64,000 nt of DNA from Aquimarina intermedia. Its GTDB lineage: Bacteria; Bacteroidota; Bacteroidia; Flavobacteriales; Flavobacteriaceae. A program made the position numbers and the translations under genes. Within the stretch, counting starts at the first letter, position 1; the number at the start of each line of letters is the position of its first letter. The stretch lies in contig NZ_VNHU01000008.1 in assembly GCF_008124785.1 (NCBI RefSeq), positions 62,001-126,000 on the forward strand, written 5' to 3'. Under the pieces are notes generated by a model. The model saw only the letters and a program-made list of their open reading frames with translations. It searched no databases and was not told the origin of the DNA. Positions 41,649 through 45,999 of the stretch are shown piece by piece.

Positions 41649-42086
41649 TTATTCTTTTGATTTTTGTCGTAATCGTTGCATTAATTTTTTATGAAACTCA
41701 TATTCTGCTCTAAAAAGTAATAAAATCTTGTGACTTGAAATAACTTTTTTGAGATCTGTGATCATTGCAAGTTTTGTAGAGAGTTGTTTCTGTTCAGTCT
41801 CGCGATACTCATTTAAAAGTTCTTTGGCAGTTGTTTCCGATTGTTCCTGTTCTGATTGTGATTTGAAGGTTCTAAAAATTTGACGTTCCTTTCGTTTTAA
41901 GTCATGCATTTGCGTGTCATATTTATTATAAACAGGCCAAAATTTTGTTGCCTCGTCTGAGGATAGCTGGAGCTGTTCTGTAAAAAATGCAATTTTATAC
42001 GCTTTAATTTTTTCTCTTGAATTCTTTTGTGCTGTACCAAACTGGACAGCAAAAAGGATGCTTAAAATTAGACTAATCTTTTTCAT
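41649..42086 (-). CDS. Small exported Spy/CpxP-like protein of an ECF operon
   Basis: 145 aa with a signal peptide (MKKISLILSILFAVQFGTAQ). The mature part is all-helical and charged, with LQLSSDEATKFWPVYNKYDTQMHDLKRKE, which fits the Spy/CpxP-like sensor proteins common in ECF operons of Bacteroidota. It probably sits in the periplasm and senses or binds something there. It is the third gene of a three-gene unit (sigma factor, membrane protein, this), 5 bp after the membrane gene. Confidence 0.82.
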   Translation of the reverse strand: MKKISLILSILFAVQFGTAQKNSREKIKAYKIAFFTEQLQLSSDEATKFWPVYNKYDTQMHDLKRKERQIFRTFKSQSEQEQSETTAKELLNEYRETEQKQLSTKLAMITDLKKVISSHKILLLFRAEYEFHKKLMQRLRQKSKE

Positions 42087-42091
42087 AGGTT

Positions 42092-42610
42092 TTATTCTTG
42101 TATAAGTAAATCTACTTGTATGTCTTCTGATAATAAATAATTTTCAATATTCTTTTCTTCAATCGACGAGAAACTCATTGTATTCGTCAATTCTTCTGTC
42201 GTACTATATAAATAGCTTTGATAGTTTTCATAGTCAATAGGTTCTTCACCCAAATAATTTTCTATATCCGCTATAGTAAGGTCATTAATTGTAAACGTTT
42301 TTGAAGGAGCATTAACAATAGTGAGTATTAGGATAAACACAGCAGCTATGGATGCCATGACCGTTAGCTGGGTTTTTGTAAGATAAAAAATAGGACTGTG
42401 CTGTTTCTGCTTAGAATGATTAAAAACACCTTCGGATAAGGTTTTAAAATAACCTTCTGGCACGATAAAACCAGTTTTAGCAGGTTTTGAAACTACGGGA
42501 ACCTTCGTGGTACTATTCACAGCATTATACAATGACTCATTTAATGTTTCAAAGTAATTTTCTGGAGTTGTGAATCCTGATTCAGGTATGTTGTTATGAG
42601 ATGATTTCAC
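42092..42610 (-). CDS. Membrane protein of an ECF operon, probable anti-sigma factor
   Basis: 172 aa. A hydrophilic N-terminal part of about 85 residues carries two PENYFETL-like repeats (TPENYFETLNESLYN at about 15-29 and VPEGYFKTLSEGVFN at about 49-63). One membrane helix follows at residues about 86-104 (LTVMASIAAVFILILTIVN), then an acidic outside tail. This layout, one helix with an inner N-terminus, is that of anti-sigma factors, although no zinc motif is present. It begins 7 bp after the sigma gene. Repeats of the PxxYFxxL type are frequent in such flavobacterial partners. Confidence 0.8.
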   Translation of the reverse strand: MKSSHNNIPESGFTTPENYFETLNESLYNAVNSTTKVPVVSKPAKTGFIVPEGYFKTLSEGVFNHSKQKQHSPIFYLTKTQLTVMASIAAVFILILTIVNAPSKTFTINDLTIADIENYLGEEPIDYENYQSYLYSTTEELTNTMSFSSIEEKNIENYLLSEDIQVDLLIQE

Positions 42611-42617
42611 CTTTTTT

Positions 42618-43178
42618 TTAATTATCTTGATGGTTCTTGATGTAACTTTCTATTTTTTTTGATGCCAGATGATAAGTAGCCTTAAGTGCTCCTTCACTAA
42701 TTTCTAAAATTTGTGCAATTTCCTTATACTTTAGATCCTCAAAATATTTCATATTAAAAACTTGTTGTTGCCTTTGAGGTAGGGTAGCTATTGCTTTCTG
42801 TAACTTAAGTTGTAAGGCGTCTCCCTCAAAATAAACATCCGCTTCAAGATTTGCTGTCAATTGTAAATATAATTCTGCATTTGAAATATTATTCTTTTTT
42901 GCTTTAGAGTTTAAAAATGTTAAGGATTCATTAGTAGCTATACGATATAACCATGTAAAAAGCTTACTGTCTCCTTTGAAACTATCGATATATGTATGTA
43001 CTTTAATAAATACATTCTGAAGGATGTCGTTGGCATCATCATGATCTTTCACCATATTCCTAATATGCCAGTATAAGGGTTTGCCATAGTGCTCAATTAG
43101 CATTTTAAAAGCGTAATCCTTATCACTACCATTAACCAGAAGCTCCGCGATATGTTGGTCTTTATTTGATGTTGCCAA
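42618..43178 (-). CDS. ECF-type RNA polymerase sigma factor
   Basis: 186 aa. Region 2: ANDILQNVFIKVHTYIDSFKGDSKLFTWLYRIATNESLTFL, residues about 48-88. Region 4: LPQRQQQVFNMKYFEDLKYKEIAQILEISEGALKATYHLASKKIESYI, residues about 133-180, with a clear helix-turn-helix. It leads an operon with the putative anti-sigma factor and the Spy-like protein. Its start faces away from the triplicated small-RNA units, whose first copy begins about 130 bp upstream; the region between is AT-rich and should hold its promoter. Confidence 0.95.
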   Translation of the reverse strand: MATSNKDQHIAELLVNGSDKDYAFKMLIEHYGKPLYWHIRNMVKDHDDANDILQNVFIKVHTYIDSFKGDSKLFTWLYRIATNESLTFLNSKAKKNNISNAELYLQLTANLEADVYFEGDALQLKLQKAIATLPQRQQQVFNMKYFEDLKYKEIAQILEISEGALKATYHLASKKIESYIKNHQDN

Positions 43179-43347
43179 GGATTCGATCGATAATAAATTT
43201 AATAGTTAATATAAGTAAGACTTTAATTTAATCAAAAGGTTTAATGCATATATAATTTTAATTGTAAGAATAAGACTACAAATAGACAGGTTGTTTAAAC
43301 TTGATAGTGTTAAAAATGCTAAATTTATCGATTAAGAGCATTGTTGG

Positions 43348-43379
43348 TTTGGTGGATTGAATTTTCTATGGTATGTTTG
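43348..43379 (+). promoter_or_regulatory. Promoter of small-RNA copy 1
   Basis: TTTG at 43348-43351 and TATGTTTG at 43372-43379 are 20 bp apart, a good match to the Bacteroidota sigma-A consensus. The same pair recurs at 43661-43664 / 43685-43692 and 43974-43977 / 43998-44005. Confidence 0.8.
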
Positions 43380-43385
43380 TCATGT

Positions 43386-43517
43386 AACAATGAAATACTA
43401 CTTTCATTTTCCCCAAGATGAAAGTTTTATATAAGAGTGAGTTTTAATTTTAGAATAAGCCCTAAAAATTAAGATGATTTGTGTGAAAGGAAAAAAGCGC
43501 TACTAGCGCTTTTTTTC
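43386..43517 (+). ncRNA. Candidate small RNA, copy 1
   Basis: Predicted from the promoter at 43372-43379 to the T-run after the terminator. Hairpin 1 pairs ACTTTCAT (43400-43407) with ATGAAAGT (43418-43425) around a C-rich loop (TTTCCCCAAG). Hairpin 2 pairs 43442-43453 with 43462-43474, 12 pairs and one bulged A, loop AATAAGCC. The terminator stem is 43491-43501 with 43505-43515 (AAGCGCT/AGCGCTT core). A start of translation is not evident. It could be a trans-acting regulator with an exposed CCCC loop. The ends are estimates. Confidence 0.75.
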
Positions 43518-43660
43518 ATTTATATAGGTTTCTCAAAGGAAAACTTTGATCGCTACTTAATGCGTTCATCATATTTGTAAGAAAAAGATTACTAACACTA
43601 GTGTTTTTAGATTAACTATATGTTAAAAACACTAAATTTATCGATTAAGAACATTTTTTG

Positions 43661-43692
43661 TTTGGTAAATTAAATTATGAATGGTATGTTTG
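43661..43692 (+). promoter_or_regulatory. Promoter of small-RNA copy 2
   Basis: TTTG at 43661-43664 and TATGTTTG at 43685-43692, 20 bp apart. The 20-bp spacer differs from copy 1 at several places, but both boxes are unchanged. Confidence 0.8.
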
Positions 43693-43698
43693 TCATGT

Positions 43699-43830
43699 AA
43701 CAATGAGATACTACTTTCATTTTCCCCAAGATGAAAGTTTTATATAAGAGTGAGTTTTAATTTTAGAATAAGCCCTAAAAATTAAGATGATTTGTGTGAA
43801 AGGAAAAAAGCGCTACTAGCGCTTTTTTTC
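43699..43830 (+). ncRNA. Candidate small RNA, copy 2
   Basis: Body identical to copy 1 except one A-to-G change near the 5' end (TGAAAT to TGAGAT), outside the stems. The three hairpins lie at 43713-43738, 43755-43787 and 43804-43828. The promoter boxes are also identical, while the sequence between the units differs more, which suggests selection on the RNA. Confidence 0.75.
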
Positions 43831-43973
43831 ATTTATATAGGTTTCTCAAAATAAAACTTTGATCGCTACTTAATGCGCCTACCGAATTTGTAAGAAAAAG
43901 ATTACGGATACAAGTATTTTTACATTAATAATATGTTAAAAATGCTAAATTTATCGATTAAAAGCATTTTTGG

Positions 43974-44005
43974 TTTGGTAAATTGAATTTTGTATGGTAT
44001 GTTTG
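43974..44005 (+). promoter_or_regulatory. Promoter of small-RNA copy 3
   Basis: TTTG at 43974-43977 and TATGTTTG at 43998-44005, 20 bp apart, the same boxes as in copies 1 and 2. Confidence 0.8.
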
Positions 44006-44011
44006 TCATGT

Positions 44012-44143
44012 AACAATGAGATACTGCTTTCATTTTCCCCAAAATGAAAGTTTTATATAAGAGTGAGTTTTAATTTTAGAATAAGCCCTAAAAATTAAGA
44101 TGATTTGTGTGAAAGGAAAAGAGCGCCTACGGCGCTCTTTTCT
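44012..44143 (+). ncRNA. Candidate small RNA, copy 3, with compensatory changes
   Basis: Against copy 2 there are two changes in the body: the outer pair of hairpin 1 goes from A-U to G-U, and one loop base changes. The terminator stem differs but still pairs fully: AAGCGCT/AGCGCTT became GAGCGCC/GGCGCTC (44117-44127 with 44131-44141), that is two paired substitutions. Such double changes argue for a real structured RNA. The same hairpin may also end transcription of the convergent ABC transporter gene. Confidence 0.75.
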
Positions 44144-44169
44144 ATTTATAAATAATAAATATGTAGATG

Positions 44170-45999
44170 TTATTCAAAAGATTGCATGGTCACCAGTTTT
44201 TGATAGGCGCCATTTTTTGATAACAACGTTTCGTGAGTACCTTGTTCTACAATACGTCCTTTTTGCATAACCACGATTACGTCAGAATTTTGTATCGTTG
44301 ATAAACGATGAGCGATAACAATACTTGTTCTGTTCTTCATCATATTTTCTAAAGCAGATTGAACCAAGCGTTCACTCTCTGTATCTAAAGCAGAGGTAGC
44401 TTCATCTAAAATCATAATGGGTGGGTTTTTAAGAACCGCACGTGCAATGGATATGCGTTGTTTTTGTCCTCCACTCAACTTGTTTCCGCTATCACCGATA
44501 TTCGTATGAATGCCTTTTGGTAATTCTTTGACGAATTCCCATGCATTAGCAATTTTAAGAGCTTCTATGATTTCTTCTTCTGTAGCGTTCTCTGATCCAA
44601 TTAGAAGATTATTTTGGATGGTGTCATTAAATAGAATTGAATCTTGTGTTACTAAGCCCATCAAACCGCGAAGCGACTCTTTTTTTAAGTCTTTTATTTC
44701 AATACCATCTATTGTAATTTCTCCTTCATTCACATCATAAAATCGAGTAACGAGATTTGCGATGGTGGATTTACCACTACCGGACTGCCCAACCAATGCT
44801 ACCGAACTTCCTTTGGGCACAGTAAGATTAAAATCTTTGAGCACATATTCGTCTTCATACTTAAAGGAAATATTTTGAAGGCTGATATTAGTAGTAAAAT
44901 CATTTTTTACAATAGCATCGGATTTATCTTGAAGAGGGGATTCTGTGTTCAAAATCTCTAAGACACGCTCTGCCGCAGCATTTCCTTTTTTAACTCCGTA
45001 ATTTGCTTTCGAAATAGCTTTTGCAGGTGTCAGAATATTATACGCCAATCCAATATAGGCCAAAAACATTTCAGCTTGTAACGATTCATCAATAAACACC
45101 AATCTACCTCCGTATAATAATAGGACCGAGATTACACAGATTCCTAAAAACTCACTTGTAGGGGAGGCAAGATTTTGTCGATTGAGTAGTGTGTTTGAGT
45201 AATCGAAAAAACGATTCGTAGAAGCTTTAAATTTGTTACTGAAGGCTTTTTCAGCATTAAAACCCTTGATAACTTTCAGTCCGCCTAGAGTTTCTTCGAC
45301 TATAGATAAAAATATTCCTTGTTCTTTCTGAACCTTATCAGAATGTTTTTTTAAAGATTTACCAATTAGTGATATAATAAATCCTGATACCGGAATAAAA
45401 ATAAAAACAAATAGTGTCAACTTCGTACTTAAAAACAGCATAGCACCCAGTGTGAAAAGAATGGTTAGAGGTTCCCTTACAATAAGCTCCAAAATTGATA
45501 AAAAAGAATGTTGAATCTCAAGAACATCAGATGATATGCGTGCCATGGTATCTCCTTTTCTCTTTTCTGAAAAGAAAGATAAGGGAAGGCTTACTGTTTT
45601 GTCGTACAGCTCATTCCTAATATCTTTGAGTACACCATTACGCAAAAAGGTGATAAAAAACATGGCCAGATAATTGAACAGGTTTTTCAACATAAAAATA
45701 GTAATGATCCCGATAATCATATACGAAAGGACATACATTTTTCCTTCACTTTCTACAGTTTCTACAATAAAACAATTTAGTGTATCGGTCAGATAAGCTT
45801 TGGCATTTGAAATACCATTCCATACCGGTTCGTAATACTCTACATCCTTTTCTGAACTAAAAAGCACCTTCAATACAGGGATTAAAGCAATAAATGAGAG
45901 GGTGCTAAATATTGCGTAGAATATATTACATATAATATTAAGTATACCATATGTTCGATAGGGTATTGCAAAACGCAGAATTTGTTTGAAATAGGTCAT
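44170..45999 (-). CDS. ABC transporter, fused permease and ATPase (MsbA-like exporter)
   Basis: 609 aa. An N-terminal membrane domain with six helices (residues about 15-320) precedes an ATPase domain: Walker A GQSGSGKST near residue 395-405, Q-loop VTQDSILFND, signature LSGGQKQRISIARAVL, Walker B PPIMILDEATSALD, and the H-loop IVIAHRLST. Half-size exporters of this type work as homodimers; in Bacteroidota this one is usually grouped with lipid A or multidrug exporters. It begins 27 bp before the end of the phosphosugar mutase gene upstream, so the two may be co-transcribed. Inner membrane. Confidence 0.95.
   Translation of the reverse strand: MTYFKQILRFAIPYRTYGILNIICNIFYAIFSTLSFIALIPVLKVLFSSEKDVEYYEPVWNGISNAKAYLTDTLNCFIVETVESEGKMYVLSYMIIGIITIFMLKNLFNYLAMFFITFLRNGVLKDIRNELYDKTVSLPLSFFSEKRKGDTMARISSDVLEIQHSFLSILELIVREPLTILFTLGAMLFLSTKLTLFVFIFIPVSGFIISLIGKSLKKHSDKVQKEQGIFLSIVEETLGGLKVIKGFNAEKAFSNKFKASTNRFFDYSNTLLNRQNLASPTSEFLGICVISVLLLYGGRLVFIDESLQAEMFLAYIGLAYNILTPAKAISKANYGVKKGNAAAERVLEILNTESPLQDKSDAIVKNDFTTNISLQNISFKYEDEYVLKDFNLTVPKGSSVALVGQSGSGKSTIANLVTRFYDVNEGEITIDGIEIKDLKKESLRGLMGLVTQDSILFNDTIQNNLLIGSENATEEEIIEALKIANAWEFVKELPKGIHTNIGDSGNKLSGGQKQRISIARAVLKNPPIMILDEATSALDTESERLVQSALENMMKNRTSIVIAHRLSTIQNSDVIVVMQKGRIVEQGTHETLLSKNGAYQKLVTMQSFE

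Follow-up and report, generated by a model that had tools for sequence, protein, structure and literature searches.

The window analysed is a stretch of 64,000 nucleotides from Aquimarina intermedia (G000:C8:62001-126000; an Aquimarina-type genome). Three direct repeats, spaced at exactly 313 and 313 bp, lie at 43308-44150 of the window, in a slot bordered on the left by a divergent ECF sigma factor gene (42618-43178, minus strand) and on the right by a convergent MsbA-like ABC transporter gene (44170-45999, minus strand). Each of the three units is built in the same order: a direct-repeat box, a promoter, an RNA body and an intrinsic terminator, all on the plus strand. In copy 1, the direct repeat with a 21-bp period (GTTAAAAATGC-N10-GATTAAGAGCA), a putative activator site, occupies 43308-43340 and is followed at 43348-43379 by a Bacteroidota promoter, TTTG-N20-TATGTTTG, with TTTG at 43348-43351, 20 nt, and TATGTTTG at 43372-43379 (copies 2 and 3 at +313 and +626). 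The predicted sRNA runs from 43385 to 43518, the 5' end being inferred from the promoter and the 3' end from the terminator. It comprises hairpin 1 (43400-43425), whose loop carries CCCCAA at 43411-43416; hairpin 2 (43441-43474) with the loop AATAAGCCC, nearly invariant in sequence across the genus; an invariant linker TGATTTGTGTGAAAG 5' of the terminator (43475-43489); and the intrinsic terminator itself (43491-43517). The box, promoter and predicted sRNA of copy 2 are found at 43621-43653, 43661-43692 and 43698-43831 (terminator included), and those of copy 3 at 43934-43966, 43974-44005 and 44011-44143, with the terminator at 44115-44143. With 27 bp between it and the stop codon of the ABC gene, which runs convergently, this last terminator might possibly terminate both strands. 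An element 5' of each copy (43259-43282, plus strand; also 43572-43595 and 43885-43908, where it reads TTTGTAAGAAAAAGATTAC) resembles TTTGTAGGAAAATATTTACTA in the promoters of a paralogue, the A-type sRNA described below. No further copies were found in the source genome beyond the three in the window.

The initial annotation had described three units with an exact 313-bp period, each with its own TTTG-N20-TATGTTTG promoter and terminator, and this description held for all three copies. Its claim of a nearly invariant body of about 130 nt between drifted linkers held as well: the RNA bodies (predicted length ~130 nt) are identical at 112-114 of 115 positions (97-99%) and the linkers between units at only 27-40 of 49 (55-82%), with the upstream box (30-33/34, or 88-97%) and the -33/-10 segment (30-34/38) also compared. 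The compensatory change reported for the terminator stem of copy 3 was confirmed as stated (AAGCGCT/AGCGCTT in copies 1 and 2 versus GAGCGCC/GGCGCTC in copy 3), as was the A-U to G-U change in hairpin 1 of the same copy, located at the stem base, to which a U-G to U-A change near the loop can be added. Missing from that annotation were the direct-repeat box at 43308-43340, which is conserved alongside the promoter, and the C-rich loop of hairpin 2, the second of its kind in the RNA; being confined to the local array, it also lacked the locus shared across the family, the constancy of the CCCCAA loop and the complementary G-loop paralogue.

The predicted fold of the RNA reaches -34.1 kcal/mol against -18.1 ± 2.9 kcal/mol for shuffled sequences (z -5.45), and none of 200 shuffles was as good. 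No conserved reading frame was present among 56 relatives, in agreement with the initial claim that none explains the array; the longest ORF has 27 aa and its identity differs from copy to copy. A short peptide was considered and rejected, every frame being broken by insertions or deletions among the copies. A dual-function RNA encoding a short peptide, such as MKVFNKSEF, has in its favour that such an ORF, of nine codons, is seen repeatedly in some of the copies. However, the same ORF is broken elsewhere by insertions, deletions and start changes, and selection acts on pairing and loops, which makes this alternative very unlikely. Overall, the array is almost certainly a conserved structured RNA gene.

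Relatives in Aquimarina and in the same slot of other genera

Relatives were detected by blastn in 54 of 55 genomes of the Aquimarina genus, the sole exception (G031) being an incomplete assembly, and outside the genus blastn gave one marginal match only. The only match of model R1 outside the genus, a weak one (G434, 36.9 bits), was judged to be chance, as its alignment ran mainly via the terminator. In the named Aquimarina species the arrays are found in the corresponding position, between the ABC and ECF sigma genes and on the 3' side of the former, and contain up to 11 copies (11 in A. pacifica). Additional copies occur outside the array. Examples are three genomes with a copy next to a DUF456 gene (L020, L028 and L119) and two with one next to a dehydrogenase-type gene (L024 and L123); as these neighbours recur across species, the dispersed copies appear conserved in their own right.

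In an alignment of 56 genus copies, the segment from hairpin 2 up to the terminator is almost invariant. Double compensatory changes occur in five of the eight pairs of hairpin 1 and in three of the ten of the terminator, and hairpin 2 shows almost no covariation because its sequence hardly varies. Two genomes (G005 and G007) possess single diverged copies that have a rewritten yet paired hairpin 1 and retain hairpin 2, AAGCCCC and GATTTGTGT included. One further Aquimarina copy (L058:5859-5970) has a different hairpin 1 and no hairpin 2, and keeps TGATTTGTGTGAAG and the terminator.

The gene order around the slot is conserved across the family: PGM, ABC, slot, ECF sigma, two small genes, YCF48-like, rRNA methyltransferase. 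Apart from ABC and ECF, the flanking-gene names were read from sequence, and PGM, YCF48-like and rRNA methyltransferase are what we take these genes to be. In the window, the ECF sigma gene and then two small genes without a Pfam match, family-wide neighbours of the slot, fill 41649-43178; these genes are missing in some genera where the sRNA persists. In other genera the sRNA genes of the slot likewise consist of a direct repeat, a promoter, a hairpin of 8 bp whose loop reads CCCCAA, and a terminator, most genera having a single copy with one or two C-rich loops. A covariance model, R2, built from 27 slot sRNAs of other genera, matched 143 of 400 genomes and 96 of 237 sampled Flavobacteriaceae genera. 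When the genome-wide searches with R2 and R3 (the model of the A-type sRNA) were taken together, all 60 of the 60 best loci bordered the ABC gene. Since the sRNA remains in loci from which the ECF gene is absent (L148 and L149, for example), the constant flank is the one with the ABC gene. Beyond the family, a search of the order with R2 gave almost no matches (one marginal, G573, 37.3 bits), and g153, a large genus of the family, was absent from the R2 matches examined.

The Aquimarina array shares with the slot sRNAs its position, the promoter box, the 8-bp stem with the CCCCAA loop, and the terminator. The Aquimarina copies, which have the extra hairpin 2, did not match R2 significantly (best E 0.12). 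We consider it likely that the array in the window represents, in Aquimarina, an sRNA gene that is ancestral to the Flavobacteriaceae and became fixed between the msbA-like ABC and the ECF sigma genes.

Two other explanations bear on this distribution. The several scattered copies per Aquimarina genome might suggest a dispersed DNA repeat or a mobile element with no role as an RNA, but outside the genus there is a single orthologous slot, the compensatory changes require an RNA, and promoter and terminator are retained in every copy, so that this possibility is all but excluded. A 6S-like RNA, binding RNA polymerase or the ribosome with its loops as the protein contact, would fit the strong structure and a single syntenic gene in many genera; however, the structure does not form a long bulged rod, Rfam gave no 6S match, and a separate 6S RNA has been reported for F. 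psychrophilum (PMC9723704). It is very unlikely.

The box upstream of the promoter is part of the conserved unit. Its half-sites, GWTWAARWGCA (also written GATWAARTGCA), recur with a period of 20 bp in 41 loci and of 21 bp in 17, just upstream of -33 and mostly 30-43 bp 5' of the model start. Allowing at most 3 mismatches in 22 positions, 48 of 60 loci contained the direct repeat, against 53 of 1200 random stretches drawn from those loci, some of which overlap real sites. A search with the box alone recovered a diverged copy with a rewritten hairpin 1 in two genomes. Because the half-sites are two helical turns apart and placed just upstream of -33, the repeat is inferred to be the site of a transcription activator, of which only the conservation is shown. 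The repeat period suggests a LytTR response regulator as a possible box-binding factor; no supporting paper was found in the open-licence literature searched. The same box pattern occurs in the opposite orientation upstream of orthologous T9SS type B sorting-domain (TIGR04131) genes in four Aquimarina genomes (L157, L160, L167 and L179, near 1501-1532), and these genes may possibly belong to the regulon of the sRNA.

Covariation in hairpin 1, the CCCCAA loop and a G-loop paralogue

Hairpin 1 was aligned at fixed offsets around CCCCAA in 45 distinct sequences (31 from other genera and 14 from the Aquimarina genus), with omission of a few loci in which the loop is one base shorter or the stem shifted. 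In these 45 hairpins, 97.2% of the cells were paired versus 70.8% after shuffling, 115 cells versus 30 were doubly changed, and all eight stem pairs showed double changes. Covariation was 0.94 versus 0.374 in shuffled controls, and all slid registers were far worse. The loop CCCCAA is identical in 45 of 45, albeit in rows picked by that motif. Stems that are rewritten with pairing kept, around a fixed loop, point therefore to selection on the presented loop and not on the stem sequence. A second C-rich loop is provided by the terminator hairpin in many other genera, where it again reads CCCCAA, and by hairpin 2 in Aquimarina, with the sequence AAGCCC.

Of the checks that the initial annotation had named, all those open to computation spoke for it. 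No Rfam family matched, the same structure was found outside the locus with tandem copies elsewhere, and covariation is strong against shuffled and slid controls; the refuting case it had foreseen, a dispersed repeat or known mobile element, is contradicted by the 60 of 60 best loci in one orthologous slot. Its reading of the array as a candidate small RNA under selection is supported, with transcription remaining inferred.

The A-type sRNA (model R3) is a second RNA, tandem and upstream, that was present in 35 of 400 genomes, 32 of which also match R2. Since models R2 and R3 cross-match, the A-type and B-type sRNAs are paralogues. The A-type terminator loop GCGGGGGC is invariant over 13 aligned rows (picked by that loop). 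Its sequence complements AGCCCC/GCCCC in the loops of the B-type, and pairing of the loops alone is predicted at -11.8 to -13.7 kcal/mol. The spacer of the A-type promoter holds a strongly conserved, dyad-like TAGGAAAATATTTACTA (e.g., L106:6036-6183 and L089:6059-6206). The base before CCCC is G in all 34 loci with an A-type sRNA; in the 25 loci without one it is T in 20, C in 1 and G in 4, and among these four, L078 carries a relic A-type without the G run. The G run was lost in two A-type relatives, L078 and L077. On the ABC-protein tree, one of the two traits (loop base and G-loop partner) changed twice and the other three times. With only two independent contrasts, the correlation between loop base and A-type partner is suggestive and not significant.

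The main rival to an RNA that pairs with other RNAs is a protein sponge in the manner of CsrB/RsmX, in which CCCCAA hairpins titrate an unknown RNA-binding protein and the copies add up. In its favour, the loop is invariant although the stems are freely rewritten, there are two C-rich loops per RNA, and multiple copies go together with an activator-type box upstream. In such RNAs, as for the GGA loops of RsmX, the stems need only hold the loop. Known sponges of this kind have GGA motifs in their loops and CsrA/RsmA in the genome; the invariant loop here reads CCCCAA, and CsrA was outside the search. On the other hand, in most genera one copy with one or two loops is few for efficient titration unless strongly expressed, the paralogue with a complementary G loop fits RNA-RNA contacts better, and no candidate protein is at hand (RRM_1 is absent, with CsrA not covered). 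The sponge remains possible.

Proposed function and comparable systems

We favour, by a modest margin, a regulator-controlled, Hfq-independent, trans-acting sRNA that pairs via its C-rich loops. Conservation, structure, loop invariance, synteny, the promoter box and the absence of Hfq and RRM_1 matches are shown; targets, regulator and transcription are not. Each copy would be transcribed separately from its housekeeping-type Bacteroidota promoter, which is inferred without transcript data, and a regulator at the direct repeat just upstream would switch the copies on. The stable RNA would display the C-rich loops CCCCAA (hairpin 1) and AAGCCC (hairpin 2), or elsewhere CCCCAA in the terminator loop, and these may pair with G-rich sites of target RNAs with no need for Hfq. 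Tandem amplification in Aquimarina would raise the RNA dose, and in one clade the tandem paralogue with the GCGGGGGC loop could pair with the C loops, perhaps as a target mimic or antagonist.

A bolder reading, which we are inclined to doubt, is that the CCCCAA RNA and the GCGGGGGC RNA neutralise each other by loop-loop kissing, as an RNA-only switch. It would include separate promoter control, via the common direct repeat plus TAGGAAAATATTTACTA in the A-type spacer, and an adjustment of dosage through copy number in lineages without a G-loop partner, e.g., Aquimarina.

No match to Hfq or RRM_1 was found in the source genome, while the controls gave matches. Antisense targets of the invariant linker AAGATGATTTGTGTGAA were sought in 18 genomes, where all placeable exact complements were the sRNA genes themselves and the remaining complements were mismatched, with no clear pattern. 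C-rich loops are generally known as Shine-Dalgarno blockers. Translation in flavobacteria does not depend on Shine-Dalgarno sequences (Baez 2019, as cited in PMC11697453). With such sites hardly in use, C-rich loops lack their usual target, and selection on these loops raises the question of what else they bind. Few flavobacterial sRNAs have a known function. Moreover, the natural series of 1 to 11 copies makes the additivity of tandem sRNA copies testable.

With Rfam 15 at the gathering cut-off, there were no matches in the window or in the loci of 14 relatives, and relaxed thresholds gave only weak matches at chance level. No published description of such an RNA was found in the open-licence literature searched. 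The closest parallel is LhrC1-5 of Listeria monocytogenes, multicopy RNAs of ~111-114 nt for which Hfq is dispensable, with UCCC in a hairpin loop and the terminator loop and two-component control via a conserved promoter element; LhrC acts by blocking the Shine-Dalgarno site (PMC4132741). Both systems are multicopy, repeat a C-rich motif in hairpin and/or terminator loops and have a conserved element at each promoter, and because the genome lacks Hfq and RRM_1 matches, an Hfq-independent, LhrC-like mode is, by analogy, the natural model. However, the sequences are unrelated (no match to an LhrC family appeared among the Rfam results), the phylum is another one, and flavobacteria hardly use the Shine-Dalgarno sites that LhrC blocks. 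No mention of a G-loop partner RNA, such as the A-type here, was found for LhrC in PMC4132741.

FopS/GibS of Bacteroides are likewise multicopy paralogous Bacteroidota sRNAs with their own promoters and terminators (PMC11697453). FopS has a single-stranded 5' seed, then a terminator hairpin, and is bound by the RRM protein RbpB (PMC11697453), whereas the conserved part here is a hairpin loop, the copies are tandem, and the source genome has no RRM_1 match; the GibS covariance model scored 21.5 bits, its gathering cut-off being 115. Among the conserved sRNAs of F. psychrophilum (Rfp11, 13, 15 and 18; PMC9723704), Rfp18 is, by its published description, similar in being from Flavobacteriaceae and in having several stem-loops with a predicted pairing region in a stem-loop, kept between species. 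Qrr1-5, the CiaR csRNAs and RsmX are familiar cases in which a single regulator controls several sRNA copies whose dosage adds up, but their loops, structures, regulators and phyla all differ from those described here. Overall, the new element is a family-wide sRNA without an Rfam 15 family, and the kind to which it belongs, multicopy sRNAs with C-rich loops, is a known one.
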